Below, in pieces: positions 17,270-34,270 of a DNA stretch of 64,000 nucleotides. Within the stretch, counting starts at the first letter, position 1; each line of letters opens with the position of its first letter. The notes beneath the pieces were generated by a model, which saw only the letters and a program-made list of their open reading frames with translations, was not told the origin of the DNA and ran no database searches. The translations under genes were made by a program, and so were the position numbers. Where the stretch lies: the NCBI RefSeq assembly GCF_038811545.1, contig NZ_CP133319.1:2571516-2635515 (forward strand). Reading direction: 5' to 3'. This stretch comes from Rhodoligotrophos sp. CJ14 (GTDB taxonomy: Bacteria > Pseudomonadota > Alphaproteobacteria > Rhizobiales > Im1).

Positions 17270-17275
17270 CCTATT

Positions 17276-18505
17276 CTAGCTCGCCAGCCTCAGCGCCATG
17301 TTCAGAAGCACGTCCGCTCCGGCCGCACACTGGGCTGGAGTACTGTATTCCGTCTCATTGTGAGAGATGCCGGTCTCGCTCGGCACGAAGATGAGCGCGG
17401 TCGGGCAGAGCCTCATCATCGGAACCGCATCGTGGCTGGCCACGGTCAGGATGTCCCGATGGGTCAAGCCCAGCTGATCGGCGGTCTCTCTCACGAGACC
17501 GGTCATCCTCGCGTCCATCTCCACCGGGCCGAACTCAAAATATTGCTCGAGCGTTATGGTGACGCCCCGCTCTTGCTCGACCTTGCGGCACGCCGCCCGC
17601 AGCTCGGCTTCCATCTGCACCGCCTCTTCCGGGTCGCGATGGCGCACATCGCAGCTTAGCCGCACCTCCGCCGGAATTACCCCGCGCACATTGGGATAGA
17701 TCTCGATATGCGGTGCATTCGATCGCCCATCCCGCCCGCGCGACCGGCCGATCCGATCGATTTCCAGCGTGAGCGCCGCCGCTCCCACCATGGCATCGCT
17801 GCGCTGTTCCATCAGGGTCGGGCCCACATGCGCGGCCTGTCCCTTCACCGTTGCCACGAAATAGAGCGCCTTGAACGAGCCCGTGACAACGCCGATCTGC
17901 TCGCCCCCTTCCTTGAGCAGCGGTCCCTGCTCCACATGAAGCTCGAGGTAAGTGCCAACCTTGCGGCCCCCCACCGGACTGCTTCCGGCATAGCCAATGC
18001 GCTCGAGCGCCTCACCAACGGTCACGCCGGACGGATCTTGCCGCGACAGCGCGAAATCCAACGCAATATCGCCAACAAAGACCGACGAGCCGAGGGTCAT
18101 TGGCGAGAACCGCGCCCCCTCCTCATTGGTCCAGCACACAAGCTCGATCGGCGCGCGCGTTGCAACCTGCTGATCATTCAGCCGCCTGATCATCTCGAGC
18201 CCGGCAATCACGCCCAGAATGCCGTCGAATTTCCCGCCCGTCGGCACAGTGTCGAGATGGCTGCCCACCATAACCGGTGCGGCCTGGGGATCGCTGCCTT
18301 CACGGCGGGCGAAAATATTGCCGAGCCTGTCCACGGTGACGCTGCAGCCGGCCTCCTTGGCCCAACGGCACAGAAGATGCCGTGCCTCTCCATCCTCGGC
18401 CGTGAGTGCAAGCCGCCGTGAGCCGCCAGCAGCAGTCTCACCAATGCGGCCGATCTCCATGAGCGCCGACCACAGGCGGTCGCTATCCACGCGCAAGCTA
18501 TTCAC
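17276..18505 (-). CDS. N-carbamoyl-L-amino-acid hydrolase / allantoate amidohydrolase family (M20)
   Basis: The 409-residue protein matches the hydantoinase/carbamoylase branch of M20 metallopeptidases: VGSHLDTVPTGGKFDGILGV (metal His and Asp), CWTNEEGARFSP (Glu-Glu pair) and ELHVEQGPLL (late metal ligand and dimer contact), with SHDAVPM near the end. It would hydrolyse N-carbamoyl amino acids or ureido compounds to the amino acid, CO2 and ammonia. The start is GTG 18505 with an AGGA-type ribosome site. It is the last gene of the operon starting at 25938, 6 bases after the ArgE/DapE-like gene. Confidence 0.9.
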   Translation of the reverse strand: MNSLRVDSDRLWSALMEIGRIGETAAGGSRRLALTAEDGEARHLLCRWAKEAGCSVTVDRLGNIFARREGSDPQAAPVMVGSHLDTVPTGGKFDGILGVIAGLEMIRRLNDQQVATRAPIELVCWTNEEGARFSPMTLGSSVFVGDIALDFALSRQDPSGVTVGEALERIGYAGSSPVGGRKVGTYLELHVEQGPLLKEGGEQIGVVTGSFKALYFVATVKGQAAHVGPTLMEQRSDAMVGAAALTLEIDRIGRSRGRDGRSNAPHIEIYPNVRGVIPAEVRLSCDVRHRDPEEAVQMEAELRAACRKVEQERGVTITLEQYFEFGPVEMDARMTGLVRETADQLGLTHRDILTVASHDAVPMMRLCPTALIFVPSETGISHNETEYSTPAQCAAGADVLLNMALRLAS

Positions 18506-18511
18506 TTGGCT

Positions 18512-19801
18512 CTATCCTCTCTCTACGCCGCACCACTCGGCCAGGAACAGCGCCATCGTTTTGGTCACTGCCCTGACGGACTCGAGGTCGACCCGCTCGT
18601 CGAACCCGTGCGGCCGCTCACAGATCGGACCGTAAACCAGGCCAGGCGTGTTCTGGTAGAGGCCAAAGAAGCGAGCGTCGGTGGCAGCAGAGGTCACCAC
18701 GTCCTCGAGCTTCTGATCGAACACGGCATAGTGGCTGTCGGCGAGCACCGCCTCCGGCACCGCCGCATTCTCCAGAACGTATCCCTCCGCCATATGGCCG
18801 TGATACTCGACCCGTGGCGGATTATTGGAGAGATAGGGATCGCTCAGCGCCGCCTTACGAATACAGGCCTCGATCTCGTTGCGAATATCCGCAAGCTTGG
18901 CTCCCGGCAGCACGCCGACGCGGACATTGAGGGTTGCCGTGGCGGGCACGCTGGACGTCCATTCGCCGCCCGAGATCTCTCCGAGATTGACGCGGATCGG
19001 ATGCGGATGATCCTTATAGACGGGGTGGTCGACCTTGCGCGCGTTCCAGACGTCTTCCAGCGCCTTGATATGCGGCCATAGGCTCAGCGCCTTCTCGATC
19101 GCATTGGCGCCCACATTGTTGAACCCGGCGGAAGCATGTTGCGGATCGCCGTCGACATGCACGCGGAACCAGATCAATCCCACTTCTGCCCGCATGAGCT
19201 TCGGCTCCAGCGGCTCGGGAACGAAGGCACAGTCGGCGCGATAGCCCCTTTGCAGACAGGCGAGCGTGCCATTGCCCGTGCATTCCTCCTCGACCACCGA
19301 TTGGAAGTGGATCGGCGCCGTGGGCATGAAGCCGGCCGCCCGCACCGCATCGAAAGCAAACAGCGTGCCCGCAAGCCCCGCTTTCATGTCACCGGCGCCA
19401 CGGCCATACATCCACTTGCCCTCGATACGCGGCTCGAAGGGCGGCGTCGTCCAGCGCTCCCATGGACCCGTCGGCACCACATCCACATGACCATTGAAGA
19501 TCAGCGAGCGGCCCTTGCGGGTCTTCGGCCGGTATGTGCCGACGACATTGAAGGAATTCTCGTAAGAGATCGCCACCGGCGCGAAACCCGGCATATCCTT
19601 GATGTCGTCCACATTGATCCGCCAATGATCCACATCGAAGCCACGCTTGGCCATGGCATCGGCCATGAAATCCTGCATGGTGTGCTCCTGGCCTCGCAAC
19701 GAGGGAATGCGCACCATGTCCTGCGTGAAGCGGATCTGGTCATCGAATGCCGCATCGACCGCATCCGTGATGGCTTTGGCAACGTCCTTGTCGAGCATGC
19801 C
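18512..19801 (-). CDS. ArgE/DapE family deacylase (M20 peptidase), copy 1
   Basis: This protein of about 429 residues has M20 motifs NGHVDVVPTGP (metal His, Asp), YGRGAGDMKAG (bridging Asp) and VVEEECTGNGT (catalytic and metal Glu). It should remove an acyl group from an N-acylated amino acid or dipeptide. ATG 19801 is chosen because AAAGGAG lies 6 bases upstream; the earlier in-frame ATG overlaps that site. It is clearly paralogous to the gene at 24646-25938, and the two flank a branched-chain-type ABC importer, which points to import and deacylation of one substrate class. Confidence 0.9.
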   Translation of the reverse strand, partial: GMLDKDVAKAITDAVDAAFDDQIRFTQDMVRIPSLRGQEHTMQDFMADAMAKRGFDVDHWRINVDDIKDMPGFAPVAISYENSFNVVGTYRPKTRKGRSLIFNGHVDVVPTGPWERWTTPPFEPRIEGKWMYGRGAGDMKAGLAGTLFAFDAVRAAGFMPTAPIHFQSVVEEECTGNGTLACLQRGYRADCAFVPEPLEPKLMRAEVGLIWFRVHVDGDPQHASAGFNNVGANAIEKALSLWPHIKALEDVWNARKVDHPVYKDHPHPIRVNLGEISGGEWTSSVPATATLNVRVGVLPGAKLADIRNEIEACIRKAALSDPYLSNNPPRVEYHGHMAEGYVLENAAVPEAVLADSHYAVFDQKLEDVVTSAATDARFFGLYQNTPGLVYGPICERPHGFDERVDLESVRAVTKTMALFLAEWCGVERG

Positions 19802-19822
19802 TGCTCCTTTCACTTTACGAGT

Positions 19823-20812
19823 TCACTGCGACCGGGTGCCGAACCGCTTCATCACCAGCGGACCGAGCGTCGCAAGGCCCCTGGGCAGGAACATCACGAT
19901 CAGAATGATGATCGCGCCATAGACCAGCAGGCGGTAATTATCGAGATCGCGCAACAGCTCGACGGTGACCGTGAGGATCAGCGCGCCGATCAGCGGCCCG
20001 CTCAGCGTGCCAAGCCCGCCCACCAGCGCCATGGCGATGATGAGGATCATGAGATCGACACCCACCGCGGCCGATGGGGTGAGGATGCCGATGTAATGGG
20101 CATAGAAGGCACCGGCCAACCCGACGAGAAAAGCGCTGACCCCGAACACCAGCAGCTTCTGCTTGGTGAGGTTGACCCCGAGGCTCTCGGCTGCGTCCTC
20201 GGCATCGCGCATGGCAACCATTGACAGCCCGGTTTTTGAGCGCATCAGCAGGGTGATCACCGCCGTGGACGCGATGAGCAGGATCAGCACGAGATAGTAG
20301 TACGGCACCTTATCGGCGGGTGTGAATGCCACCTTGCCGAGCCCGGGCAGAGTGAAGCCGGTGAAGGCGGGAATGCCCCAGAGCCCAAGCTCACCCCGGG
20401 TGATCGACTGGAGGTTGGAAATGACGATGCGCACGATCTCCGCAAAGCCAAGCGTCACGATCGCCACATGCGGCATGGATTTGATGCGCAGAATGGGCAA
20501 GCCGATGAACAGGCCCGCAACGGTCGCCGCCAAGGCCGCAATCCACACTGTGAGCCAGGGGCTCAAACCCGCATTGATGCTGATCAGGGCTGAGACATAG
20601 GCGCCGATGCCAAAAAAGGCATGATGGCCGAACGTCTTGAGGCCTGCAAAGCCGGTGACCAGGTTCCAGGCCGAAGCGAAGATGCCGAAGATCATCGACA
20701 GGATCAGGACGTGCAGCAGATAGCTGTCGCGGGTGAGGAGCGGGATCACCGCCATAATGGCAATCGCGGCAACGATCAGTGCCCAATGCTGCGGTTTCAG
20801 CGGAAGAAACAT
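19823..20812 (-). CDS. Branched-chain amino acid-type ABC transporter permease (LivM family)
   Basis: The 329-residue protein has about nine hydrophobic segments and LivM hallmarks: NLVTGFAGLKTFGHHAFFGIGAY near the N-terminus, the GLSMVAMRDAEDAAESLGVN cytoplasmic loop (EAA-like ATPase contact) and GGLGTLSGPLIGA. It forms the inner-membrane channel with the LivH homologue encoded just upstream. It is followed after 21 bases by the M20 deacylase gene. Confidence 0.93.
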   Translation of the reverse strand: MFLPLKPQHWALIVAAIAIMAVIPLLTRDSYLLHVLILSMIFGIFASAWNLVTGFAGLKTFGHHAFFGIGAYVSALISINAGLSPWLTVWIAALAATVAGLFIGLPILRIKSMPHVAIVTLGFAEIVRIVISNLQSITRGELGLWGIPAFTGFTLPGLGKVAFTPADKVPYYYLVLILLIASTAVITLLMRSKTGLSMVAMRDAEDAAESLGVNLTKQKLLVFGVSAFLVGLAGAFYAHYIGILTPSAAVGVDLMILIIAMALVGGLGTLSGPLIGALILTVTVELLRDLDNYRLLVYGAIIILIVMFLPRGLATLGPLVMKRFGTRSQ

Positions 20813-20858
20813 GCTTATCTCCGGTCAGCCAGCTGGGTCTGTGCGGCAAGGCGGGTCA

Positions 20859-21734
20859 TCACGAGGGCTTCTTTCCAAACAGGCCCCAGGGCCGCCACCA
20901 GATCACGCCGATCATCAGGGCGAAGGCGATCACATCGCGCCATTCCGAGGAAGTGAGCTGCACACCGATCGCTTCCACCACCCCGAGGATGAGGCCACCG
21001 GCGATGGCACCGGGGAAGCTGCCGAGACCGCCGAGGATGACGACCACGAAGCCTTTGAGCAGGATCGGCATGCCGCTCCATGGATTGATCGCATAGATCG
21101 GCGCCAGCATGGCCGCAGCAATGGCGCCGAGGGCCGCCGCGATTCCGAAGGTGATGAGATAGATCCGCTGGGCGGGGATCCCCACGACCGCCGCTGCGTC
21201 TCGATCCTGTGACGTTGCTCGAATGGCCCAACCAAGCCGAGTGCGCTTCAGGACATAGGTCATGATGCCGATCGTCAGCAGGGCTACGCCGAAAATGAGC
21301 AGACGCTGCACCGGCAGACGGATACCGGCGAACTCTACGATGCCCGACAGGTAATAGGGCACGCTCTGGAACTGCTCGCCGAACAGCAGCAGCGCCGCAT
21401 TCTGCAGGAAGATCGAAAGTCCCAGAGTTGCGGCAATGGTCGAGAAGGCCCATCCCTCTTTCGGCAAGAGGTAATGGATCGTCAGCCGCTGGACGAGCGC
21501 GCCCAGAATGAACGTGGCCACAATCGCCAGCGGTATGGCGAGATAGGATGGCACCCCATAGGTGACCACCAGGAAGAAGACGAAGTAGCCACCCAGCATA
21601 TAGAACTCGCCATGGGCGAGGTTCAGCACCCGCATGGTGCCATAGATCAAGGCGATGCCGCTGCCGATCAGGGCATACATCGAGCCTATGATCAGGCCAT
21701 TGATGACCTGCTCAAGGAAGATCGCGTAATTCAA
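20859..21734 (-). CDS. Branched-chain amino acid-type ABC transporter permease (LivH family)
   Basis: At 291 residues this is typical of LivH. The N-terminus LEQVINGLIIGSMYALIGSG, then TMRVLNLAHGEFYMLGGYF, a Gly/Ala-rich loop AIRATSQDRDAAAVVGI and a final VVILGGLGSFPGAIAGGLIL are family hallmarks. The start is TTG 21734 with GAGAGG upstream. It pairs with the LivM homologue to form the membrane channel of the first importer. Confidence 0.93.
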   Translation of the reverse strand: MNYAIFLEQVINGLIIGSMYALIGSGIALIYGTMRVLNLAHGEFYMLGGYFVFFLVVTYGVPSYLAIPLAIVATFILGALVQRLTIHYLLPKEGWAFSTIAATLGLSIFLQNAALLLFGEQFQSVPYYLSGIVEFAGIRLPVQRLLIFGVALLTIGIMTYVLKRTRLGWAIRATSQDRDAAAVVGIPAQRIYLITFGIAAALGAIAAAMLAPIYAINPWSGMPILLKGFVVVILGGLGSFPGAIAGGLILGVVEAIGVQLTSSEWRDVIAFALMIGVIWWRPWGLFGKKPS

Positions 21735-21797
21735 GTCCCTCTCCCTTGCCCCTGGTTCGCCCCGATCCCCACGCGAGCCGTTGCGCTCCCCGCAAGC

Positions 21798-22517
21798 TCA
21801 TGCGCCGAGATAGACACGGCGGATCACGTCGGAATGGATCATCTCTTCCCCGGTGCCCGCCAGCACAACCCGGCCGCCTTCGAGCAGATAGCCCCGATGC
21901 GACAGCCCGAAGGAGAGCTGCACGTTCTGCTCGTTGAAGATGACCGCGATACCTTCCTGATTGATGCGCCGGATGATCTCGGCGATCTGCTTCACGATCC
22001 GCGGGGACAAGCCGAGATAAGGCTCATCCATCAACAAGAGGCGTGGCCGTGCCATCAGGCTGCGGGCGATCGCCACCATCTGCTGCTCGCCCCCGCTCAT
22101 CTTGCCCGCGATCTGATCGCGCCGCTCCGCCAGGATGGGAAACAGGCTCTCGACCCATTCCAGCCTGCTGCGCGTATCCTTGTTGACGCTGCGATGATAG
22201 GCGCCGAGCAGCACATTCTCGCGCACCGTCATATCGCCGAACAGTCGCCGCCGCTCGAGAACCATGGAAATGCCCAGGCTCACCATCTCATGGGTCGGCA
22301 CCTTGGTGAGATCACGGCCCTCGAATAGCACTTTGCCCGACCGGATAGGAGCGAGGCCCATAATGGCCTTGAGCACCGTGCTCTTGCCCGAACCGTTCGG
22401 ACCGAGAACAGCGACGACCTCCTTCTGGCCGACGCTCATCGAAACATCCCACAGCACCTGATAATCGCCATAGAGGACGTTCAGGTTGTCCACCTGCAGC
22501 ATTGGGGTATCAGCCAT
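21798..22517 (-). CDS. Branched-chain amino acid-type ABC transporter ATPase (LivF family)
   Basis: This 239-residue ABC ATPase has Walker A GPNGSGKST, signature MSGGEQQMVAIARSLM, Walker B LLLMDEPYLGLSP and the short C-terminus typical of LivF. It energises the importer together with the LivG homologue; the two genes overlap by 8 bases. Confidence 0.94.
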   Translation of the reverse strand: MADTPMLQVDNLNVLYGDYQVLWDVSMSVGQKEVVAVLGPNGSGKSTVLKAIMGLAPIRSGKVLFEGRDLTKVPTHEMVSLGISMVLERRRLFGDMTVRENVLLGAYHRSVNKDTRSRLEWVESLFPILAERRDQIAGKMSGGEQQMVAIARSLMARPRLLLMDEPYLGLSPRIVKQIAEIIRRINQEGIAVIFNEQNVQLSFGLSHRGYLLEGGRVVLAGTGEEMIHSDVIRRVYLGA

Positions 22518-23253
22518 GCTCGGTGGCCTCCCCTAGATAGAGATCGATCACTTCGGGGTGCTGAGCAATTTCCGCAGGGGTCCCCTCGGCCATGCGTATC
22601 CCCCGGTTCATGAAGATGGCGCGGTCGGCCAGCTCGTTGATCACACGCATATTGTGCTCGATGATGACCAGGGTCAGCCCTTCGCTGCGCAGCCGCTTCA
22701 CCAGATCGATGAGCCCCGGAATGCTCTTCTGATCAACGCCGCCAGTCACCTCGTCCAGCAGCAGCAGCTTCGGCCGGGTCGCCATGGCGCGCGCCATTTC
22801 GAGGCGTTTACGCTGCCCCGTGCTCAGCCCCTTGGCCAGCACATCCGCCCGGTCCGCGAGTCCGACCATTTCCACATAGCGCCGCGCATCGGCCCTTGCC
22901 TCCGCCATGGTGCTGTTATGGGCAAGCGCCCCCACCATGACATTTTCCTCCACCGTCAGCTCGTGAAATGGCTGGGTAATCTGAAATGTGCGCGCAACGC
23001 CCGCGCGGCAGCGCCCATCCGGTTTGAGGCCGGTAATATCCTGGCCATTGAAGATGATCTTGCCGCTATTGGGCGAATGCACCCCGGCAATCACATGGAA
23101 GGTCGTGGTCTTGCCCGCGCCGTTCGGCCCCATCAGCGCAAGGATCTCGCCGGGCTGGACCGTAAGCGACAGATTATCGATCGCGACGATGCCGCCAAAG
23201 GACATCGTGATGCCGTCGACCTTGAGAAGAGGATCCGGCGCCGGGCTCGGCAT
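22510..23253 (-). CDS. Branched-chain amino acid-type ABC transporter ATPase (LivG family)
   Basis: This 247-residue ATPase has Walker [10 protein letters not shown], the LivG-type GVARTFQ segment before the helical domain, signature LSTGQRKRLEMARAMA, and Walker B LLLLDEVTGGVDQ. In Walker B the usual DEP is DEV and the signature reads LSTGQ. It lies after the substrate-binding-protein gene, separated by 92 bases that contain a strong hairpin (23306-23338). Confidence 0.93.
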   Translation of the reverse strand: MPSPAPDPLLKVDGITMSFGGIVAIDNLSLTVQPGEILALMGPNGAGKTTTFHVIAGVHSPNSGKIIFNGQDITGLKPDGRCRAGVARTFQITQPFHELTVEENVMVGALAHNSTMAEARADARRYVEMVGLADRADVLAKGLSTGQRKRLEMARAMATRPKLLLLDEVTGGVDQKSIPGLIDLVKRLRSEGLTLVIIEHNMRVINELADRAIFMNRGIRMAEGTPAEIAQHPEVIDLYLGEATEHG

Positions 23254-23305
23254 AGGTTCGGGACTCCGAGTTTGGCAATCGAACGAATAGACGTGCGGCG
23301 GGAGA

Positions 23306-23338
23306 GCTGCCCCGCGTTCCCCACGAACGCGGGACAGC
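23306..23338 (-). terminator. Strong stem-loop between substrate-binding-protein and LivG genes
   Basis: CCCGCGTTC (23311-23319) and GAACGCGGG (23325-23333) form a perfect 9-base-pair stem around a 5-base loop. GCTG/CAGC extend it after one mismatch. No T-run follows, so it is more likely an RNA stabiliser or partial attenuator that raises binding-protein expression over downstream genes than a full terminator. Confidence 0.7.
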
Positions 23339-23345
23339 CAGGATA

Positions 23346-24581
23346 TTACTCGACCGGCTTGAAGGTCGAGGTGGCGGTCGTCTCCGGCCAGATCACCTGG
23401 CTTACACCGTTCTGGATCTGCGCCATCGGCACCGGCAGATACTCGGCGCCGACCTTTGGCGTGTGATTGGCGGTATCATAGACATAGCGCGCAATCACGC
23501 AGGGGAAGTCAGTTTTGGCAAAGGCTTCCGAGATCTTGGCGGGCTCGATTGATCCAGCTGCCTTGATGTTGTTCAGCAGCACGCCCATTTCGCAGAAGCC
23601 TTGCGCATGGTCGCCATTGCCGTCAACCCCGGCCAGCCCCTTGAACATTTCCGCGAATTCCTTGTGCTTCGGATTGTTCGTGGGGTCGAAGAACAACGGC
23701 GTCCACAGAAGCCCGTTCGCCGCATCGCCCGCACCCGGCAGGAACTCCGGACGGATCGGATAATAGACCGCCAGGTGCAGCGACTTCAGGCCCTGTTCCT
23801 TGATCTGCTTGACGAGCGCAATGCCGGAATTGACGGACGTAAAGATCGAAACCAGCACATCCGGCTCATCGCCACGCAGCTTGGAGAGCTGCGGGTAGAA
23901 ATCCGCGTGCCCGAGCGGCACGGTCTCGCTCGACGACACCGTCCAGCCCGCCTCCTTATAGAGCGGCTCGGTATATTCGACATTCGACTTCCCGTAGTCG
24001 GTATCCTCGACGATGAACGCGATCTTCTTGTTCTTCGGCGTGAAGCTGCCCTTCTTGATCAGATCATTGACGGTCTCGAACAGCGTCTGCGCATAGGCAT
24101 CGCTGTTGAAGCTCGACTTCCAGAAATTGGCGAAGCGCTCGGGGTCGCTCTGGATCTTCTTGGCGATCTCGATCGAGACGGGCTGTCCGCTCATCATGAA
24201 TTTGCCGAAGCTTGGCGCAACTTCCATGATGGCCAGGGTGACCGAGCTCGAGATCGTGTCGCCGACCAGGATATCGACATTGTCGCGCGTCAACAGCTTC
24301 TGAGCGGCGCTCACGCCGACTTCGGGACGCGAGGCGCTGTCCTCGAAGATGAGCTTGACCTCTCGCTTTTCGCCCTCGATCTCGATGCCGCCTTCCTTGT
24401 TCACCTGTGTGGCTGCGGCCTCATAGGCCTGGCGCATGGAGATGCCGGAATTGGCGGCAGGGCCGCTCAGCGGCCCAATGACGCCGATGGTGATCTCGGC
24501 CGCTGATGCTGACGTTGCAAAAGCAGTACCGCCAAGCGCAGCCGCCACGGCGAAACTCAACAAATGGCGTTTCAGTCCCAT
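23346..24581 (-). CDS. Branched-chain amino acid-type ABC transporter substrate-binding protein
   Basis: This 411-residue periplasmic protein has a clear signal peptide (hydrophobic run to ATSASAAE, cleavage near residue 28). The mature part opens with ITIGVIGPLSGPAANSGI and contains NKEGGIEIEGEKREVKLIFE, typical of Peripla_BP_6 (LivJ/LivK-like, amide- and urea-binding) proteins. GGGGAG precedes the ATG. It is the second gene of the 25938-17276 operon. The ligand cannot be read; the flanking deacylases and carbamoylase suggest an N-substituted amino acid. Confidence 0.92.
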   Translation of the reverse strand: MGLKRHLLSFAVAAALGGTAFATSASAAEITIGVIGPLSGPAANSGISMRQAYEAAATQVNKEGGIEIEGEKREVKLIFEDSASRPEVGVSAAQKLLTRDNVDILVGDTISSSVTLAIMEVAPSFGKFMMSGQPVSIEIAKKIQSDPERFANFWKSSFNSDAYAQTLFETVNDLIKKGSFTPKNKKIAFIVEDTDYGKSNVEYTEPLYKEAGWTVSSSETVPLGHADFYPQLSKLRGDEPDVLVSIFTSVNSGIALVKQIKEQGLKSLHLAVYYPIRPEFLPGAGDAANGLLWTPLFFDPTNNPKHKEFAEMFKGLAGVDGNGDHAQGFCEMGVLLNNIKAAGSIEPAKISEAFAKTDFPCVIARYVYDTANHTPKVGAEYLPVPMAQIQNGVSQVIWPETTATSTFKPVE

Positions 24582-24645
24582 CGATATCTCCCCTGTTCCC
24601 TCTTCCTCGATTCAGACCTGAACGAATGCCCGCAGCCTGCGGTGC

Positions 24646-25938
24646 TTATGCCCCCACGAGAGGCTCAGTGCCGCACCACTCGGCGATGAACAGCGCCATG
24701 GCGGTGGTGATACGCTTCACCGACGAGATGCTGACGCACTCATCGAACCCGTGGATGTTCCGGGATACGGGGCCATAGCACAAGGCTGGAATTTGGTCGT
24801 AGAGCGCATAGACCCTGGTGTCGAGATAGGCTGGCGTTGTGAGCGTCTCGAGAGGTTTGCCTACGGCTGCCTCATGCGCATTGGCAAGGACTTGCTCGGC
24901 TTCCGAGCCCGGCTTCAGCACATAGCCTTCCGTATGGAAGCCGTTGAAGGTGACCTTCGGCGGCATGTTTGACAGGAATGGATCTTGCCGCGCGAAATTC
25001 GCAACACGCTCACTGATCTCCCGCGCCGCGCTGGCCGCATCCACTCCGGGATAGATCGCGATACGGCAATCGATCCGGCACCAGCAGGGCACGGATGAGG
25101 CCCAGTCGCCCCCTTCGATCTTGCCGATATTCAGATTGATCGGGTGCGGATCATCTTTGAAATGCTCGTAATTGGCCTTGCGGTGGTTCCAGTCCTGCTC
25201 GAGCTTCCGCAATTCGCCGACCACCCGGTAGGCCGCGTCGATCGCATTGGCGCCGGCGCCCATCTCGCGCACATGCACAGGCAGACCGCGCACCTCGACC
25301 TGGAACCAGATCACGCCCGCATTGGCGCGCACCAGTTTCTCATCCTCAGGCTCGGGAATCAGCACCGCATCCGCCTTATAGCCGCGAAGATGCGTCATCA
25401 GCGCCCCGTTGCCCGTCGATTCCTCCTCGACGACCGACTGCACATAGACCGTGGCGGCAGGCTGCAGCCCGATGCGCCGTAAGGCATCCAGAGCAAACAC
25501 ATTGGCAGCCGCGCCGGCCTTCATGTCGCCCGAGCCACGACCATACATCCAGTCGCCGACGATCTCGCCGCCATAGGGCCCGTGCTGCCACATGGATTCC
25601 GGTCCGGTTGGGACCACGTCGAGATGCGATTGGAGAATGAGAGATCGGCCCTTTTCCTCGCGCGGGTAATGAATGCCCACAACGATCGGCGCAGTCGAAT
25701 GCTGCTCGGACCAGGGCGACCCGCCGGGATGGCGCTCGATCGCCTCCTGGTCCATCGGGAACCGGTCCATGACAAAGCCGCGCCTGTGCAGCTCCCGGAA
25801 CGTGAAATCCTGAACCGTGTGCTCGGCGCCGCGGACGGAGGGAAACGAGACCAACTTCTGTGTATAGGCCAGCTGGTCCGCAAACCCCTGTTCCACGGAC
25901 TCAACAATCGCACGGCGCATGTCTGGAGCAAGCGTCAT
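24646..25938 (-). CDS. ArgE/DapE family deacylase (M20 peptidase), copy 2
   Basis: A protein of about 430 residues with M20 motifs QSHLDVVPTGP, YGRGSGDMKAG and VVEEESTGNGA. It aligns along its length with the 18512-19801 protein, including the shared C-terminal FIAEWCG, so they are paralogues. ATG 25938 has GAGGGTG upstream; an in-frame ATG at 26037 would place the N-terminus on top of the IclR operator and is rejected. It is the first gene of the eight-gene operon, under the promoter at 25999-26027. Confidence 0.9.
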   Translation of the reverse strand: MTLAPDMRRAIVESVEQGFADQLAYTQKLVSFPSVRGAEHTVQDFTFRELHRRGFVMDRFPMDQEAIERHPGGSPWSEQHSTAPIVVGIHYPREEKGRSLILQSHLDVVPTGPESMWQHGPYGGEIVGDWMYGRGSGDMKAGAAANVFALDALRRIGLQPAATVYVQSVVEEESTGNGALMTHLRGYKADAVLIPEPEDEKLVRANAGVIWFQVEVRGLPVHVREMGAGANAIDAAYRVVGELRKLEQDWNHRKANYEHFKDDPHPINLNIGKIEGGDWASSVPCWCRIDCRIAIYPGVDAASAAREISERVANFARQDPFLSNMPPKVTFNGFHTEGYVLKPGSEAEQVLANAHEAAVGKPLETLTTPAYLDTRVYALYDQIPALCYGPVSRNIHGFDECVSISSVKRITTAMALFIAEWCGTEPLVGA

Positions 25939-25998
25939 CGGTTCACCCTCATCCGATTGCGGCCCCCTCGTGACCGCGATGTAAGCATTGCTTCTCCG

Positions 25999-26027
25999 GG
26001 TATGAAAGGTCTTTTCGAGAGTGTCAA
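25999..26027 (-). promoter_or_regulatory. Sigma70-type promoter of the deacylase/importer operon
   Basis: On the minus strand a perfect TTGACA (-35, bases 26022-26027) is followed after exactly 17 bases by CATACC (-10, bases 25999-26004). The -35 box is inside the operator palindrome 26020-26038, so a bound regulator would block polymerase. The -10 match is weak (3 of 6). Confidence 0.55.
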
Positions 26028-26038
26028 GAAATGACACT
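26020..26038. promoter_or_regulatory. Operator-like palindrome 1 for the divergent IclR regulator
   Basis: AGTGTCAAGAAATGACACT is a perfect inverted repeat (7-base arms, 5-base centre) in the 129-base gap between the IclR gene and the operon it probably controls. IclR-family proteins bind such short palindromes as dimers or tetramers. It overlaps the operon's -35 box. Confidence 0.65.
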
Positions 26039-26040
26039 AT

Positions 26041-26057
26041 GGGTCACACAATGACAC
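26041..26057. promoter_or_regulatory. Operator-like site 2 for the divergent IclR regulator
   Basis: GGGTCACACAATGACAC repeats the layout of site 1 (6-base arms, 5-base centre; 13 of 17 bases identical to its core) with its centre 20 bases away, about two helical turns. It ends 10 bases before the IclR ATG, so it could also mediate autoregulation. Confidence 0.6.
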
Positions 26058-26067
26058 GAAACTGAAC

Positions 26068-26877
26068 ATGCGTGCAGCACAAGCCGGTAACGACACAAGG
26101 TTAAGGCCCCGGCCCGGCGTGCCGATCGTGCGCTCGGTTGAGCGTGCGGCCGCGATTTTGCGCGCCTTCTCGCCCGGTGAGACGCACCTGTCTCTGGCGG
26201 AGCTTTCCCGTCGAACCCAGCTCGACAAGAGCACCACGCGCCGGTTGCTCCACACATTGTCTGTTGTCGAGCTGGTCGAATATCATGAGAGAGAGCAGGC
26301 TTATGCGCTGGCGCCCGGCGTGCTCATGCTCGTGCCGGCCGTGAATTATGGCCGCGATCTGAGGGACGTCGCCGAACCCGTGCTCGCCCGGCTCACTGAG
26401 ATCACCGGGGCCACCGCCTTCCTCTGGTCCTTCTTCGGGTCACATGCAATGTGCCTTGACCGAGTAAAGGCACGCGACCTTCATATCGACGCGCCATGGT
26501 CTGCAATCGGTACGCGCATTTCGCTCAATTGCGCGGGCGGCCCGCGCGTCATACTCGCTCACCTCTCCGCGCAGGAGCGCCTCGAAATCTTGCAGCAAGC
26601 TCTGCCGAAGCACACCCCGTTCACCCAGACCGATCCCGCGGAGCTCGAGGCCGCCGCGAATCTCATCCGGCAACGGGGCTGGGAGCTCGCGATCGATGAT
26701 TACATCGTTGGTCTCGCGGGTTTGGGAGTGCCGGTCTTTGATCGAACCGGCAGGTTCGTCGCGAGCATCAGCATCACCACCCTGACGCCGAGCCTGCCTC
26801 TGGAGAATGGTGAGCCACGTCATCTCCGCGCCATGCTGGATGCGGCCGCCGAGATCGGCGTGCGTTTGCAGCCATGA
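26068..26877 (+). CDS. IclR family transcriptional regulator
   Basis: The 269-residue protein has an N-terminal winged helix (IVRSVERAAAILRAF, LSLAELSRRTQLDKSTTRRL) and an IclR ligand-binding domain (GSHAMCLDRVKA; WELAIDDYIVGLAGLGVPVF). It probably senses an amino-acid derivative and controls the divergent deacylase/importer operon through the two sites at 26020-26057. No Shine-Dalgarno is visible before ATG 26068, so a leaderless message or a later start is possible. Its stop overlaps the DMT transporter start (ATGA). Confidence 0.92.
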   Translation: MRAAQAGNDTRLRPRPGVPIVRSVERAAAILRAFSPGETHLSLAELSRRTQLDKSTTRRLLHTLSVVELVEYHEREQAYALAPGVLMLVPAVNYGRDLRDVAEPVLARLTEITGATAFLWSFFGSHAMCLDRVKARDLHIDAPWSAIGTRISLNCAGGPRVILAHLSAQERLEILQQALPKHTPFTQTDPAELEAAANLIRQRGWELAIDDYIVGLAGLGVPVFDRTGRFVASISITTLTPSLPLENGEPRHLRAMLDAAAEIGVRLQP

Positions 26878-27773
26878 AGCTCACCACCACGGCCCGGCCG
26901 CTTCATCTCGCCGGCGTGCTGCTGCTGGCCAGCATGTGGGGACTGAATTGGCCTGCAGTGAAGATCGCGCTCAATGAGATCTCGCCTTGGACCTTACGGG
27001 CCATAGGCCTCACTTGCGCTGGCATCGTCCTCGCCGTCGCCGCCCTTATCCGAGGCAACAGGCTGTCGGTTTCGCGTCGCGAGGTCGGGCCGCTGATCCT
27101 CGCCGGCATGCTGACCATTGCCGGGTTCAACCTGTTCCTTGCCTTTGCCCAGCTCATGACCTCCACCTCGCGCGCGGTGATCGTGACCTTCACCATGCCG
27201 GTCTGGACCGTGATCTTCGCCCGGCTGTTCTTGGCCGAGCCACTGGATCGTCAGCGCATGACGGGCATTTGCCTGGGCCTTGCGGGGCTGGCAGCGCTCT
27301 CATGGCCGCTGATCGCATCCGGCGGGTTCAGCATTGGCCTCATCTATGCACTATGCGCCGGCCTTTGCTGGGCTCTGGGCAGCGTGGTGACCAAGAAATG
27401 GCCCGTGGATGCGGCGCCACTCACCGTGGCCACCTGGCAGCTCCTCACCGGTGCGGTCTGCGCCATTGGCGGCATGCTGCTCTTCGAGGGAATCCCCGTC
27501 TATCACGGCCTTGCCGAGAGCACGACCTTGGCGCTCCTCTACCACGTCATCGTGGCCCTTGCGATCGCCTACCTGTTGTGGTTCGCGATCCTGCCGCATG
27601 TGCCTTTGGGCATTGCGAGCCTCGGGACCCTGCTGGTGCCCGCGATCGGTGTTCTCGGCGCCACCATTCTGCTCGACGAGCGCCCCACAACCATGGATTA
27701 TATCGGCCTCTGCCTGATCACTTTGGCAGCCTTGAGTATCCTGCTTCCAACCGGGCGCAGACGTACAGAATAG
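26874..27773 (+). CDS. DMT superfamily transporter (EamA family)
   Basis: The 299-residue protein has ten predicted hydrophobic helices in two EamA repeats (LLASMWGLNWPAVKIAL at the start; ALCAGLCWALGSVVTKKWP beginning the second half). EamA proteins usually export amino acids or metabolites. Coupling to the IclR gene by an ATGA overlap suggests relief of amino-acid overload during catabolism; that role is inferred. Confidence 0.9.
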   Translation: MKLTTTARPLHLAGVLLLASMWGLNWPAVKIALNEISPWTLRAIGLTCAGIVLAVAALIRGNRLSVSRREVGPLILAGMLTIAGFNLFLAFAQLMTSTSRAVIVTFTMPVWTVIFARLFLAEPLDRQRMTGICLGLAGLAALSWPLIASGGFSIGLIYALCAGLCWALGSVVTKKWPVDAAPLTVATWQLLTGAVCAIGGMLLFEGIPVYHGLAESTTLALLYHVIVALAIAYLLWFAILPHVPLGIASLGTLLVPAIGVLGATILLDERPTTMDYIGLCLITLAALSILLPTGRRRTE

Positions 27774-27876
27774 AAACCTTGTGCCCCGCGGTCTATTCCC
27801 CGAAAGGGTCAATGGACAGTCGCAGGATATCGGAGCGACACTCCGCTCTTCACACTGACACAAGGGAGGGATAGCC

Positions 27877-29472
27877 ATGCGAATGCCCCGATTGCGAGAC
27901 TTCCTTTCGGCGATGGTATTCGTGGCCGGATTATCGGTGCCGGCACTCGCAGCCACCCCGGCCGACACGCTGGTCCAAGCCTGGCAGTTCGACGACATCA
28001 TCACCTTGGACCCGGCGGAAATCTTCGAGCTTTCCGGGGCAGAGGTCGCCGGCAACAGCTATGAGCGCCTGATCGGCTACGACATCAATGACGTCTCCAA
28101 GCTGCACGGTGTCGTTGCGGAAAGCTGGTCCGTGTCCGAGGACGGCAAGACCGTCACCTTCAAGATTCGCGAGGGGCGGAAATTTGCCTCCGGCAATCCC
28201 CTGACCGCCAATGATGTCGCCTATTCCCTTCAGCGCGCGGTGCTCCTCGATAAGTCACCCGCCTTCATCATCACCCAGTTTGGCATCACCAAGGAGAATG
28301 TGAAGGACAAGATCAAGGCGACCGGTGATTACGAAGTCGTCTTCTCCATGGACAAGCCCTACGCCATCAGCTTCGTCCTTTACTGCATGACAGCGACCGT
28401 CGCCTCCGTGGTCGACAGCAAGCTGCTCATGGAAAACGAGAAGGATGGCGACTTCGGCCATGAGTGGCTGAGGACTCATTACGCCGGCTCGGGTCCCTTC
28501 AAGATCCGCGACTGGCGCGCCAACGAAGTGATCGTGATGGAGCGCAATGACAATTACGGCGGAGACAAGCCGGCGCTCGCTCGCGCGATCTACCGGCATA
28601 TTCCCGAAACCGCAACCCAACGCCTGCTGCTCGAAAAGGGCGATGTGGATGTTGCCCGCAATCTTGGCCCGGAAGAGATCGAAGCGGTCTCGGCCAATGA
28701 TCAGATCCAGCTCCAGAGGGCTGCAAAAGGCACGCTCTATTATTTCAGCCTCAATCAGAAGAACGAGATTCTGGCCAAGCCGCAGGTGCGCGAGGCCATG
28801 AAATATCTGGTCGACTATGATGCGATTGCCGACACCATCATGAAGAACCTGGGCGAGAAGCATCAGGCTTTCCTGCCCAAGGGCTTCCTTGGTGCGGTGA
28901 ATGACACGCCCTACAAGCTCGATGTCGAGAAGGCCAAGGCGCTGCTTGCCGAAGCGGGCCATCCCGAGGGCTTCAACATCACCATGGATGTCCGCTCGAC
29001 CCAGCCGATCGCCGGCATGGCCGAAGCCATTCAGCAAAATCTTGCACAAGGCGGGATCAAGATGGAGATCATCCCCGGCGATGGTAAGCAGACGCTGACG
29101 AAATACCGTGCCCGCCAGCATGATCTCTATATCGGACAATGGGGTGCCGACTATCAGGATCCCCATACCAATGCGCAGACCTTTGCCTCCAATCCCGACA
29201 ATTCGGACGAGGGTCCGTCCAAGACCCTCGCCTGGCGCAACGCTTGGGACACGCCTGAGCTGAACAAGCAGGTGGACGCCGCAATTCTCGAAAGCGACAC
29301 GGCCAAGCGCGCCAAGATGTATGAGGACATGCAGAAGGAGGTCATGGAGACCGGACCCTTCGTGATCATGTTCCAGCAGATCGAGGTGGCTGCCCTCTCG
29401 AAAAACGTGAAGAATTTCGTGCTTGGACCGTCATTTGACACCAATATCGTCGCGGGCGTGAGCAAAGACTGA
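27877..29472 (+). CDS. Peptide ABC transporter substrate-binding protein (family 5)
   Basis: This 531-residue periplasmic protein has a signal peptide cleaved near residue 26 (VPALAA). The family 5 signature AESWSVSEDGKTVTFKIREG is followed by FASGNPLTANDVAYSLQRAV, and the C-terminal domain has YNIGQW-like LYIGQWGADYQDPHTN. It delivers peptides or similar ligands to the permeases encoded next. GGGAGGG precedes the ATG. It heads the peptide importer operon 27877-33130. Confidence 0.92.
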   Translation: MRMPRLRDFLSAMVFVAGLSVPALAATPADTLVQAWQFDDIITLDPAEIFELSGAEVAGNSYERLIGYDINDVSKLHGVVAESWSVSEDGKTVTFKIREGRKFASGNPLTANDVAYSLQRAVLLDKSPAFIITQFGITKENVKDKIKATGDYEVVFSMDKPYAISFVLYCMTATVASVVDSKLLMENEKDGDFGHEWLRTHYAGSGPFKIRDWRANEVIVMERNDNYGGDKPALARAIYRHIPETATQRLLLEKGDVDVARNLGPEEIEAVSANDQIQLQRAAKGTLYYFSLNQKNEILAKPQVREAMKYLVDYDAIADTIMKNLGEKHQAFLPKGFLGAVNDTPYKLDVEKAKALLAEAGHPEGFNITMDVRSTQPIAGMAEAIQQNLAQGGIKMEIIPGDGKQTLTKYRARQHDLYIGQWGADYQDPHTNAQTFASNPDNSDEGPSKTLAWRNAWDTPELNKQVDAAILESDTAKRAKMYEDMQKEVMETGPFVIMFQQIEVAALSKNVKNFVLGPSFDTNIVAGVSKD

Positions 29473-29474
29473 CC

Positions 29475-30581
29475 TTGGTTATTGAGCCGACAGGAACTGG
29501 CGCGGTCTCCGAAACGGCGGCTGGGTTTCGTCGAGAGGACCGGGCCAAGGGCTCCAGCCTGGTGCTTGCCACCGGGCTGACGCTCGTGCGCTTTCTCCTG
29601 ATGCTGGCCGTCACCCTTGTGGGGCTGTTGGCCATGACCTTCGTGATCGGAAGGCTCGTGCCGATCGATCCTGTGCTCGCGGTCGTGGGCGATCGTGCCC
29701 CGCCGCAAGTCTATGCGCGGGTGCGTCAGGAACTCGGCCTCGACCTTCCGCTCATCCAGCAGTTCTGGATCTACTGCAAGCAGGCGATCACCGGTGATTT
29801 CGGACGCTCGGTGCTCACCTCCAATCCGGTGCTCGAGGATATCGGCCGTTATTTCCCGGCAACCATCGAGCTCGCGACTTTGGGCACCCTCATCGGAACG
29901 ATCATTGGCGTGCCGCTCGGCGTCTTTGCCGCCGTTCGCGCGGGCAGCCTCCTCGATCAGATCGTGCGGGTGATCGGGCTCGTCGGCTATTCTGTGCCGA
30001 TTTTCTGGCTCGGGCTCATGGCGCTGCTGCTTTTCTATGCCAAGCTCGGCTGGGTTGCAGGTCCCGGCCGGCTTGATATCGCCTATGATTATCTCGTCAC
30101 CCCGGTCACCGGCATGTTGCTGGTCGACAGTCTGCTCCAGGGCGAGATCGACGTGTTCTGGAACGCGGTTTCGCACATTATTCTGCCTGCGAGCCTGCTT
30201 GGCTATTTTTCGCTGGCCTATATCAGCCGCATGACGCGCTCCTTCATGCTGAACGAGCTCACCCAGGAATATGTGACGACCGCCCGGGTCAAGGGCCTGT
30301 CTGAATCGCGCGTTGTGTGGCGCCATGCCTTGCGCAATGCTGCGGTGCCCCTGGTCACGGTCATCGTGCTCTCCTACGCCACATTGCTCGAGGGTTCGGT
30401 GCTGACGGAAACCGTCTTCGCCTGGCCGGGGCTCGGCGCCTATCTCACCAATTCCCTGCAAAATGCCGACATGAATGCCGTGCTCGGCGCCACGCTCATC
30501 ATCGGCGTCACCTTTGTCGGCCTTAATGTCGTGTCTGACCTGCTCTATCGGCTGCTCGATCCGAGGACGCGCACGCCATGA
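29475..30581 (+). CDS. Peptide ABC transporter permease (DppB type)
   Basis: The 368-residue frame encodes six hydrophobic helices, a DppB-type N-terminus (TLVRFLLMLAVTLVGLLAMT), RQELGLDLPLIQQFW and the EAA loop TTARVKGLSESRVVWRHALR. The outermost start is TTG 29475, 2 bases after the binding-protein stop and without a clear ribosome site. GTG 29562 would remove 29 residues and fit the family better. It forms the channel with the DppC-type subunit. Confidence 0.9.
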   Translation: MVIEPTGTGAVSETAAGFRREDRAKGSSLVLATGLTLVRFLLMLAVTLVGLLAMTFVIGRLVPIDPVLAVVGDRAPPQVYARVRQELGLDLPLIQQFWIYCKQAITGDFGRSVLTSNPVLEDIGRYFPATIELATLGTLIGTIIGVPLGVFAAVRAGSLLDQIVRVIGLVGYSVPIFWLGLMALLLFYAKLGWVAGPGRLDIAYDYLVTPVTGMLLVDSLLQGEIDVFWNAVSHIILPASLLGYFSLAYISRMTRSFMLNELTQEYVTTARVKGLSESRVVWRHALRNAAVPLVTVIVLSYATLLEGSVLTETVFAWPGLGAYLTNSLQNADMNAVLGATLIIGVTFVGLNVVSDLLYRLLDPRTRTP

Positions 30582-31510
30582 CCGATGCAACCCGCCCCAG
30601 CTCTGCCGGCAGCTGGAAGGAATGGCTGCTGACCCCCGAGCCCCAGTCCCGCGGACAGGCCCGCCTTGGCCGCTTCTATGTCGCCTGGCGCAGCTTCATC
30701 GGCAATCCGCTTGCGGTCCTCGGGCTCGTTATCGTGCTGATGCTGGTCATCGTCGCCATCTTCGCGGATGTGCTGGCGACCCATTCCCCAACCATAGGCG
30801 GTGATTTGCGAACCCAGCGGCTGCTGCCGCCCAGCGCCGAATTCTGGCTCGGCACCGATGATCAGGCGCGCGATATCTATTCCCGCATCATTTACGGCTC
30901 GCGCCTCACCCTCATGGTGGTTGCGCTCGTCACGGTCATTGCCATGCCGGTCGGCCTGTTCTTCGGCACGATCGCCGGCTATTTCGGTGGCTGGATCGAT
31001 GCGGCCTTCATGCGCCTCACCGACATCTTCCTGGCCTTTCCCCGCCTGGTGCTGGCGCTGGCCTTCGTGGCGGCCTTGGGGCCCGGCATCGAGAATGCCA
31101 TCATTGCGATCGCCATCACCATCTGGCCGCCTTATGCAAGGCTCGCCCGCGCCGAGACACTCACCATTCGCAACAGCGATTTCATTCACGCGGTTCGGCT
31201 GCAGGGCGGCTCCGCACCGCGAATCATCCTCAAGCATGTGGTTCCCCTGTGCATGTCCTCGGTGATCGTGCGGGTCACGCTCGATATGGCAGGCATCATT
31301 CTCACCGCCGCCGGCCTCGGATTCCTGGGGCTTGGCGCCCAGCCGCCCTCGCCGGAATGGGGCGCCATGATCGCCTCTGGCCGTCGCTTCATCATGGACC
31401 AATGGTGGGTTGCGGCCATGCCGGGCTTTGCCATCTTCATCGTCAGCCTCGGCTTCAACCTGCTGGGTGATGGGCTGCGCGATGTTCTCGATCCGAAGGC
31501 TGCCCGATGA
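30578..31510 (+). CDS. Peptide ABC transporter permease (DppC type)
   Basis: The 310-residue protein has an N-terminal extension then AWRSFIGNPLAVLGLVIVL, the DppC/OppC hallmark FWLGTDDQARDIYSRIIYGS, and an EAA loop FIHAVRLQGGSAPRIILKHV. It overlaps both neighbours by 4 bases (ATGA), indicating translational coupling across the importer operon. Confidence 0.93.
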   Translation: MTDATRPSSAGSWKEWLLTPEPQSRGQARLGRFYVAWRSFIGNPLAVLGLVIVLMLVIVAIFADVLATHSPTIGGDLRTQRLLPPSAEFWLGTDDQARDIYSRIIYGSRLTLMVVALVTVIAMPVGLFFGTIAGYFGGWIDAAFMRLTDIFLAFPRLVLALAFVAALGPGIENAIIAIAITIWPPYARLARAETLTIRNSDFIHAVRLQGGSAPRIILKHVVPLCMSSVIVRVTLDMAGIILTAAGLGFLGLGAQPPSPEWGAMIASGRRFIMDQWWVAAMPGFAIFIVSLGFNLLGDGLRDVLDPKAAR

Positions 31511-32349
31511 GCCAGAGCCCTCTCTTGACGATCGAGGACCTGCGCGTGCGCTTCCACTTGCGCCGCGGAATAGTGGAGGCGGTGCGAGGCGTCTCCTTCA
31601 CACTCGGCCGCGAACGGCTTGGAATTGTCGGTGAATCCGGCTCCGGCAAGTCACAGACCGGCCGCGCCATTCTCGGCCTCACCCGGCCACCGGGCGAAGT
31701 CACGGCGAAAACGCTGAACTTCGACGGCACCGATCTCTTGACCGCATCGCCCCGCCAGCTCCGCGCCCTGCGCGGCAGCCGTATGACCATGGTCATGCAG
31801 GACCCGAAATATTCGCTCAACCCGGTCATGACCGTTGAACGCCAGATGGTCGAGGCCTACCGCGCCCATAACCGCAGAGCGAGCCGGTCGGAGGCGCTGG
31901 AGCGTTCTGCCGCCATGCTCGCCGCGGTGAAGCTGCATAACCCAACCCGGGTGATGTCGCTTTATCCGCATGAGCTGTCGGGCGGCATGGGCCAACGGGT
32001 CATGATCGCCATGATGCTGATCACCGACCCTGATCTCCTGATCGCGGACGAGCCCACCTCAGCGCTCGATGTCACCACCCAGCTCGAGGTGCTGCGTATT
32101 CTCGATGAGCTCGTCTCCGAGCGCGGCATGGGACTGATCTTCATCAGCCACGACTTGGAACTGGTGGCCTCCTTCTGCGATCGCGTTCTCGTCATGTATG
32201 CGGGCAAGGTGGTGGAGAGCCTGCCCTCGGGCGACCTGCACGCCGCTCAGCATCCCTATACGCGCGGCCTCATGGGCTGCCTGCCCAAGCTCACCGGTGA
32301 TCGTCATCCGCTCCCCGTTCTCTCGCGTGATCCCGCATGGGCGCAATGA
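31507..32349 (+). CDS. Peptide ABC transporter ATP-binding protein (DppD type)
   Basis: The 280-residue ATPase has Walker [12 protein letters not shown], signature [15 protein letters not shown], Walker [13 protein letters not shown] and a truncated oligopeptide tail [14 protein letters not shown]. It is one of two non-identical ATPases of this importer. Note LSGGMGQR where LSGGMRQR is usual. Confidence 0.93.
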
Positions 32350-32350
32350 C

Positions 32351-33130
32351 ATGAATGCGCTCCTTGACATCGATCATCTCGGCGTCACCTTCGGCTCAGG
32401 CGCTCAGCGGTTCACCGCGGTCGATGATGTGAGCTTTTCGCTTCAGGCCGGCGAATCGCTGGGCCTGGTTGGCGAGTCGGGCTCAGGCAAATCTACAGTG
32501 CTGCGCGCGATCACCGGGCTGAACCCGATCTCGCAAGGGGCGATCCGTATCGAAGGCAAGCCCCTGGGCACCGGGCGCGACATGAGCTTCTTCCGCATGG
32601 TGCAGATGGTCTTCCAGGATCCCTATGCCTCGCTTCACCCACGCCACACCGTGGACCAGATCCTCTCCGAGCCGCTCTCGATCCACCGGATCAGGAACAC
32701 CGCGGACCGTATCGTGACCGCATTGAAGGAAGTTGGTCTTGGGCCAGGGTTCCGGTTTCGCTATCCCCACCAGCTCTCCGGTGGCCAGCGCCAGCGAGTT
32801 GCCATCGCACGCGCATTGATTCTGCGGCCGCGGCTCATCCTGTTGGACGAGCCGACTTCGGCGCTCGATGCATCCGTGCAGGCGGAAATCCTCAATCTGC
32901 TGGAAGAGCTGCGAGCCCAGCATGGCCTCACTTATGTCTTGGTGAGCCATGATCTTGCTGTTGTCGCACATCTGTGCGAACGGATCATCGTTATGCGGCA
33001 CGGGTCGATCATCGAGCAGACCTCGGCGGCGGCCCTTCGGCGCGGCGATGTTGCAAGCGACTATACCCGCGAGATGCTGCAGGCCGAGCATGGCTTCGTG
33101 CGGCGTCCCAAACCCGCCGCTGCGCAATGA
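32351..33130 (+). CDS. Peptide ABC transporter ATP-binding protein (DppF type)
   Basis: A 259-residue ATPase with Walker [24 protein letters not shown], signature LSGGQRQRVAIARAL and Walker [16 protein letters not shown] 32351 starts one base after the DppD-type stop; a longer upstream frame would overlap that gene and adds nothing conserved. It completes the SBP-B-C-D-F importer. Confidence 0.93.
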   Translation: MNALLDIDHLGVTFGSGAQRFTAVDDVSFSLQAGESLGLVGESGSGKSTVLRAITGLNPISQGAIRIEGKPLGTGRDMSFFRMVQMVFQDPYASLHPRHTVDQILSEPLSIHRIRNTADRIVTALKEVGLGPGFRFRYPHQLSGGQRQRVAIARALILRPRLILLDEPTSALDASVQAEILNLLEELRAQHGLTYVLVSHDLAVVAHLCERIIVMRHGSIIEQTSAAALRRGDVASDYTREMLQAEHGFVRRPKPAAAQ

Positions 33131-33145
33131 GCAGGAGATCTAATC

Positions 33146-33754
33146 ATGAGCGATGAAATCGTCTTCTATCACAACCCACGCTCACGCGCCCTGATCGTTC
33201 ATTGGATGCTGGAGGAGGTCGGCGCCAAATATCGCACGGTCACTCTCGACCTTCAGAAAGGCGAGCAGCGGAACCCGGATTATCTCGCCATCAACCCCAT
33301 GGGCAAGGTGCCCGCCATTGTTCACCGCGGCAATGTGATCACCGAGACGCCCGCGATCATCGCATATCTCGCCGATGCCTTCCCGGATGCCGGTCTTGCC
33401 CCGGCCTTGGATGATCCCGCGCGCGGCCCTTACTATCGCTGGCTCTTCTTCGGCGGCAGCTGCTTCGAGCCGGCTCTCCTGGACAAGATGATGAAGCGGC
33501 CGCCGGTAGAGCCCGCTGGGATGACCGGCCACGGCACTTACGAAGACGTGCTGACCGCCATCAAGATCGCCCTGACCCCAGGACCTTATATCTTGGGCGA
33601 GCGTTTCTCTGCCGCCGATGTCTATATCGGCTCAGAGCTCGGCTGGGCCATGAAGTTTGGCGCCCCGGGGCTCGAAAGCGAGCCCGTCATCACCGATTAT
33701 GTGGGACGCATGGCCAGCCGGCCGGCCTTTGCCCGCACCGTCGGGCAGACCTGA
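33146..33754 (+). CDS. Glutathione S-transferase family protein
   Basis: The 202-residue protein has an N-terminal thioredoxin-like domain (FYHNPRSRALIVHWMLEEVG; NPMGKVPAIVHRGNVITETP with the cis-Pro and glutathione-contacting Glu-Thr) and an all-helical C-terminal domain (FSAADVYIGSELGW). It lies 15 bases after the peptide importer. Together with the gamma-glutamyltransferase at 15542 this hints at glutathione or gamma-glutamyl peptide metabolism, though that link is inference. Confidence 0.9.
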   Translation: MSDEIVFYHNPRSRALIVHWMLEEVGAKYRTVTLDLQKGEQRNPDYLAINPMGKVPAIVHRGNVITETPAIIAYLADAFPDAGLAPALDDPARGPYYRWLFFGGSCFEPALLDKMMKRPPVEPAGMTGHGTYEDVLTAIKIALTPGPYILGERFSAADVYIGSELGWAMKFGAPGLESEPVITDYVGRMASRPAFARTVGQT

Positions 33755-33761
33755 CGCAGCG

Positions 33762-34151: not shown

Positions 34152-34270
34152 GAAGTAAATCTCGCGATCTCGTTTTCTGGGCTCAATCCGCCAAAGTTGG
34201 CGCGCACCCACATATTTCTGCTAATGAACATGGAAAAGCGTCGCAACCAACCCGGTGAGAGTTCCGTATC

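Follow-up and report, generated by a model that had tools for sequence, protein, structure and literature searches.

A putative double operator of an IclR-family regulator overlapping the presumed -35 box of a divergent deacylase/importer operon in Rhodoligotrophos sp. CJ14

Introduction

The stretch of 64,000 nucleotides from Rhodoligotrophos sp. CJ14 analysed here (the window) contains two similar palindromes, both within the gap that separates two divergent units, one beginning with an iclR-type gene and the other with a deacylase gene. This raises the question of whether the palindromes form an operator and, if so, which protein would bind it and which genes it would control. According to the part of Suvorova and Gelfand 2021 (PMC8222616) available to us, tandem palindromes 18-22 nt apart have been predicted for 94 IclR orthologous groups and are related to tetramer binding. 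The features concerned are as follows.

26020-26038, centre 26029, no strand: candidate operator palindrome 1, AGTGTCA-N5-TGACACT, AGTGTCAAGAAATGACACT, the one nearer the divergent deacylase gene
26041-26057, centre 26049, no strand: candidate operator palindrome 2, GGGTCA-N5-TGACAC, GGGTCACACAATGACAC
26022-26027, minus strand: TTGACA, presumed -35 box of the divergent deacylase/importer operon, inside palindrome 1
25999-26004, minus strand: CATACC, weak presumed -10 box, 17-bp spacer from TTGACA, 3/6 matches to TATAAT
26068-26877, plus strand: IclR-family regulator of 269 aa, presumed cognate protein (open reading frame; Pfam HTH_IclR and IclR_C above cut-off)
24646-25938, minus strand: ArgE/DapE-type M20 deacylase (NF005306), first gene of the divergent operon (open reading frame and family scan)
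19823-24581, minus strand: branched-chain-amino-acid-type ABC importer (binding protein, two ATPases, two permeases)
17276-19813, minus strand, as the operon: second NF005306-type deacylase and a hydantoinase/carbamoylase-family amidase
26874-33754, plus strand, downstream of iclR: EamA transporter, dipeptide-type ABC importer and glutathione S-transferase-like gene

Results and discussion

The initial annotation had described a perfect AGTGTCA-N5-TGACACT and a second palindromic copy with its centre 20 bases away. Letters and coordinates of both were found to be exact, and the centre-to-centre distance is indeed 20 bp. A single perfect 7-N5-7 palindrome is unremarkable here: 10 are seen in the window, with about 5.5 expected, and the core GTCA-N5-TGAC with at most one mismatch is not enriched (14 seen, 19.9 expected). 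The pair, unlike the single palindrome, is far beyond chance; at 23 or more of 24 positions and spacings of 18-22, base composition alone gives about 5e-8 expected pairs per 64 kb and 3.5e-6 per 4.8 Mb. The statement that the window holds no further good copies stands at a threshold of at least 10 of 12 consensus positions (the motif is strand-symmetric), but it passed over one exact core GTCA-N5-TGAC at 27250-27262, which lies inside the EamA transporter gene.

The adjacent protein was assigned to the IclR family by a Pfam scan, which gave 53.6 bits for HTH_IclR (cut-off 22) and 80.8 bits for IclR_C (cut-off 24). Its stretch LDK.T.RRLL.TL, which we take to be the recognition helix, is kept with small changes in 19 relatives. 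On the other side of the gap, the start of the deacylase was placed at ATG 25938 rather than at the listed GTG 26037 because the orthologue in G002 aligns from its residue 1, with an open frame of 430 aa. The binding protein of the branched-chain-type importer was identified by family scan and its other four subunits were named from sequence alone; the gene order of this importer is kept in relatives. The family scan of the genes downstream of iclR covered all but the second ATPase of the dipeptide-type importer, and co-transcription of these genes with iclR is possible. A gamma-glutamyltransferase gene (15362-17269) faces the end of the deacylase/importer operon and is possibly part of the same amino-acid salvage.

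Relatives of the regulator were collected by searches of different breadth. These covered three genomes of the genus; the order, where 6/397 genomes matched at E<=1e-60 with at most six candidates scored per genome; the window's family (three matches in four genomes); the family of G098 (one match in eight genomes); the family of G300 (11 matches in 248 genomes at E<=1e-55); and plasmids (four records at E<=1e-40). Across the class (385 genomes, E<=1e-55) the only genome with the regulator was the window's own, and a search for named close relatives gave one distant locus of 32% identity, which was left out. All places matched in those searches were read, apart from paralogues in the genus search, which were set aside. 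This gave 19 loci: the window, 14 from other genomes, two Acidiphilium plasmids and two Azospirillum plasmids. Five of them belong to a single genus (g124), the window's genus contributes three, and the plasmids form two near-identical pairs, so that the loci are not independent of one another. The regulators have 39-100% identity to that of the window.

The tandem pair was found upstream of the IclR gene in all 19 loci, with scores of 17-23 of 24 consensus positions, and so the motif does recur upstream of orthologous genes, the absence of which had been named beforehand as grounds for giving up the operator. Its spacing is 20 bp in 15 loci, 21 in two (L029, L038) and 19 in two (L025, L041). 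The left half-site of palindrome 1, GTGTCA, is invariant among the non-duplicate loci with 20-bp spacing (13/13). One half-site of the pair is missing in L025 and L041, and L038 is a weak case with a score of 17. In the rest of the same loci, only 10 of 1,714,580 position-by-spacing tests reach at least 17. A single second operator, present in both near-identical Acidiphilium plasmids, accounts for four of these ten (two scores of 21, plus 17 twice in an offset reading). Two more, at 18, are a second Azospirillum site between two divergent genes, and two belong to a further cluster in L035; the last two (17; L027, L036) look like chance.

Some of these background sites are worth describing in their own right. 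The second tandem operator of the Acidiphilium plasmids (L024:4669-4707 and L040:4670-4708) lies about 3.3 kb from the IclR gene, just upstream of a second M20-type gene, which is broken into two annotated fragments and has a symporter gene after it. In Azospirillum L025 and L041 the further pair has 19-bp spacing and separates an alpha/beta hydrolase gene from a divergent gene for an adenylate-forming enzyme, about 2.55 kb past the point where the IclR match begins; this suggests a second target in these relatives. L035 (G435) has a cluster of three half-conserved palindromes, stepped by 20 and 19 bp, that precedes the IclR match by about 90-130 bp; the conserved pair of this locus, at about -283, is farther from the regulator gene.

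The initial annotation had proposed a scan of the genome with the motif. With single palindromes and at most two mismatches, 45 sites were obtained, against 40 in a reversed control, so single sites carry no genome-wide signal. A sequence model made from ten operators (R1) gave one site in the own genome at E<=10, among the 150 of 849 first-look candidates scored. Across the order, it found 6/397 genomes at E<=0.01 with one site each, and these are exactly the six that encode the IclR orthologue; 15 first-look candidates were scored per genome, and five of the six matched genomes were in the training set. Because of this overlap and the small number of candidates, a hold-out model (R2) was made from eight operators, leaving out the window's genus, G098, G430 and G467, and was run on 16 chosen genomes. 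In the own genome, with 126/126 first-look candidates scored, the window's operator was the only place found (E=3.4e-5); a second, weaker match is the opposite strand of the same operator. R1 and R2 thus agree that the pair is present in one place of the genome. R2 also recovered the operators of G002, G098, G430 and G001, which are outside its training (E 1.5e-4 to 0.0027), and matched G467, the genome of L038, weakly (E=0.46). Its six remaining matches are in training-set genomes (G435, G444, G611, G405) or in genomes that share a genus with that set (G365, G492). Nothing was found by R2 in three genomes without an orthologue at the limits used (G092, G014, G180), and G404, which has no orthologue at E<=1e-55, gave one marginal match (E=0.60).

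Two single copies elsewhere in the genome were looked at. One, a perfect GTGTCA-N5-TGACAC at G000:C1:4152847-4152863 (L002:1501-1517), just upstream of a solute-binding-protein gene, was discounted because, of the two siblings, one has no such gene at a limit of E<=1e-60 and the other has the gene but lacks the palindrome. The second, at 3399524 (L004), has one mismatch; open reading frames are listed there.

The genome also encodes an IclR paralogue of 41% identity. A stretch closely resembling LDK.T.RRLL.TL is present in the paralogue and in its counterparts from G001 and G002, and upstream of each gene there is GTGTCAA and then, 19 bp on, a palindrome like ATTTCA-N5-TGAAAT (one base off in L010). 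In the own genome (L009, G000:C1:746055) the candidate operator reads GTGTCAA, followed at 19 bp by ATTTCATATAATGAAAT, and L010 and L011 hold its counterparts in the two sibling species. This palindrome resembles the WTT-11-AAW type in the available part of PMC8222616. Cross-binding between the regulator and its paralogue is possible.

The pair was then compared with the distribution of the deacylase, which is commoner than the regulator (42/397 genomes of the order at E<=1e-150). One deacylase locus was read in each of 30 of the 42 genomes. The pair is present in four (22-23 of 24), all of them adjoining an IclR orthologue, and absent from the 26 without an adjoining orthologue, which score 13-15. 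Two of those 26 genomes, G300 and G365, have regulator and pair more than 5 kb from the deacylase gene; for the other 24, absence of the regulator means no match at E<=1e-60 with at most six candidates scored per genome, and other IclR-type genes could lie near those deacylase loci. As the pair is missing at 26 of 30 deacylase loci, the operator follows the regulator rather than the deacylase. Together with the 19 of 19 loci above, this favours the initial annotation in reading the pair as the probable site of the neighbouring IclR regulator.

The genes beside the regulator are less constant. A close relative (at least 66%) of the first deacylase occurs in 13/19 IclR loci and only a distant second deacylase type in L029; no deacylase relative is within the stretch fetched for L035, L036, L037, L025 and L041. 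The branched-chain-type importer is found in six loci and the dipeptide-type in eight others, and the window has both. The Acidiphilium plasmids have an ATPase gene or a piece of one, plus a symporter. Neither the deacylase nor such an importer is beside the IclR gene in L035, where there are only distant ATPase matches 7-9 kb away, or in the Azospirillum loci, where the far end of the stretch carries an annotated ABC binding-protein gene. The neighbours that are conserved suggest that modified amino acids or peptides are taken up and hydrolysed. The evidence is evenly poised on whether the regulator and its four-half-site operator are a travelling module, with a nearly fixed two-turn spacing and embedded -35 box, that has been set before different uptake operons (with a branched-chain-type importer, a dipeptide-type importer, or the Acidiphilium cluster with its symporter).

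The overlap with a promoter was examined next. On the minus strand, TTGACA consists of the left half of palindrome 1 plus the following A. Of the promoter proposed in the initial annotation, a TTGACA with 17-base spacing to a -10 box inside palindrome 1, the TTGACA is perfect and does lie there; CATACC has only 3/6 matches and is outside the palindrome, and since a generic promoter scan also listed no promoter at the operator region, calling it a -10 box was generous. Exact TTGACA is present in 17/19 loci, the exceptions being L035 (ATGACA) and L038 (TTGACT). Among the 13 non-duplicate loci with 20-bp spacing, 12 have A directly after half-site 1, but at the equivalent position of half-site 3 all 13 have T or C. 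A -35 box therefore accounts for the A better than operator symmetry does. Over 16 non-duplicate loci and 32 spacings, the -10-like score peaks at 17 bp (mean 2.69 of 6), with 18 bp second (2.06).

The explanation that we consider best, and highly likely, is that the palindromes are one double operator of the adjacent IclR-family protein, controlling the deacylase/importer operon and the protein's own gene. Its comparative support lies in the pair itself, the nearly fixed spacing, the co-occurrence with the regulator and the kept TTGACA. For binding, the tetramer, repression and the class of ligand we infer the following. Each palindrome would take one IclR dimer, and with centres 20 bp apart the two dimers would lie on one side of the helix, as in a tetramer, which probably occupies the double operator. 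With the presumed -35 box under the operator and the iclR start codon 10 bp past its end, a single binding event could control both units: the bound dimers would mask the divergent operon's -35 box and lie immediately before iclR. It seems somewhat probable that the protein mainly represses the operon and its own gene, a view held with restraint because sites overlapping a -35 box could also serve an activator. A small molecule imported or made by the operon would release the protein; it may be an N-acyl or N-carbamoyl amino acid, a small peptide or the released amino acid.

That the same protein on the same operator activates the divergent operon while repressing itself, as proposed for some IclR-family regulators, is possible if rather unlikely. 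Activator-dependent promoters often lack a good -35 box, and here a perfect TTGACA is kept inside the operator at nearly all of the loci. By a hand estimate the two sites are centred at about -37 and -57 relative to the presumed start, positions that would suit an activator, as would the weak -10 box. There is also a precedent in BhcR of Paracoccus denitrificans, an IclR-type regulator divergent from the operon that it controls, which in the available part of PMC11323563 is proposed to repress itself and activate that operon; its predicted palindrome is upstream of the -35 box, and the operon differs from that of the window.

Far less probable is a different transcription factor, encoded elsewhere, as the protein that recognises the pair. 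The outer triplets of GTGTCA/TGACAC (GTG/CAC) do match none of the four group-1 IclR subgroups named in the available part of PMC8222616 (TGT, GTT, WTT, NGT). Against this, pair and IclR orthologue occur in the same six genomes of the order, the pair remains beside the IclR gene where the target operon is a different one, and it is missing from the deacylase loci without an adjoining IclR gene. It is hardly credible that the repeat is due to chance or is a structural element, for instance a terminator, that plays no part in regulation, since the pair, however common perfect 7-N5-7 palindromes are in the window, is conserved over large divergence. Readings as a terminator and as a structured RNA were dropped: positions 25850-26150 contain nothing terminator-like, and 15000-35000 gave no Rfam match at the gathering score.

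On its sequence, the double operator proposed here for the IclR-family protein fits the known tandem IclR operator class. As with the tandem sites in the available part of PMC8222616, two palindromes lie near the regulator gene with the core YCR...YGR (TCA...TGA in the window). The window spacing, and the 19-21 bp of all 19 loci, are within the 18-22 nt given there, and the site is conserved upstream of orthologous regulators, in the 19 loci and with the hold-out model. Against its group-1 consensus, GKTYCRYW3-4RYGRAMC, the core and the 17-bp length fit, and the outer GTG is in no named subgroup; the orthologous group may already be listed in its supplementary tables. The PcaU, PobR and HmgR sites described there have a half-site repeated in phase beside a palindrome, whereas the window has four half-sites; the Azospirillum relatives are like PcaU, PobR and HmgR, with a half-site and then a palindrome 19 bp on.

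The protein scored below the cut-offs for the PcaR/PcaU/PobR subfamily TIGR02431 (120.9 bits, cut-off 284.75) and for BhcR NF045644 (97.6 bits, cut-off 350). TtgV is reportedly an IclR-family protein with an operator and function different from those of the window. The window protein matches it in sequence (entries 2xrn and 2xro, TtgV and operator complex; E=8.8e-10), and TtgV is cited for tetramer binding in the part of PMC8222616 available. Among the open-licence papers listed, supplements apart, none on the regulator or on the motif with IclR was found, which does not prove that none exists.

Conclusions

The general picture of IclR regulation is unchanged by this locus, which would be an ordinary kind of bacterial switch. 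It does offer a clean example of a putative operator sharing bases with a -35 box. For the organism, the analysis provides a putative operator that is well supported by cross-species comparison, and a small predicted regulon, for a regulator of what would be amino-acid or peptide scavenging.
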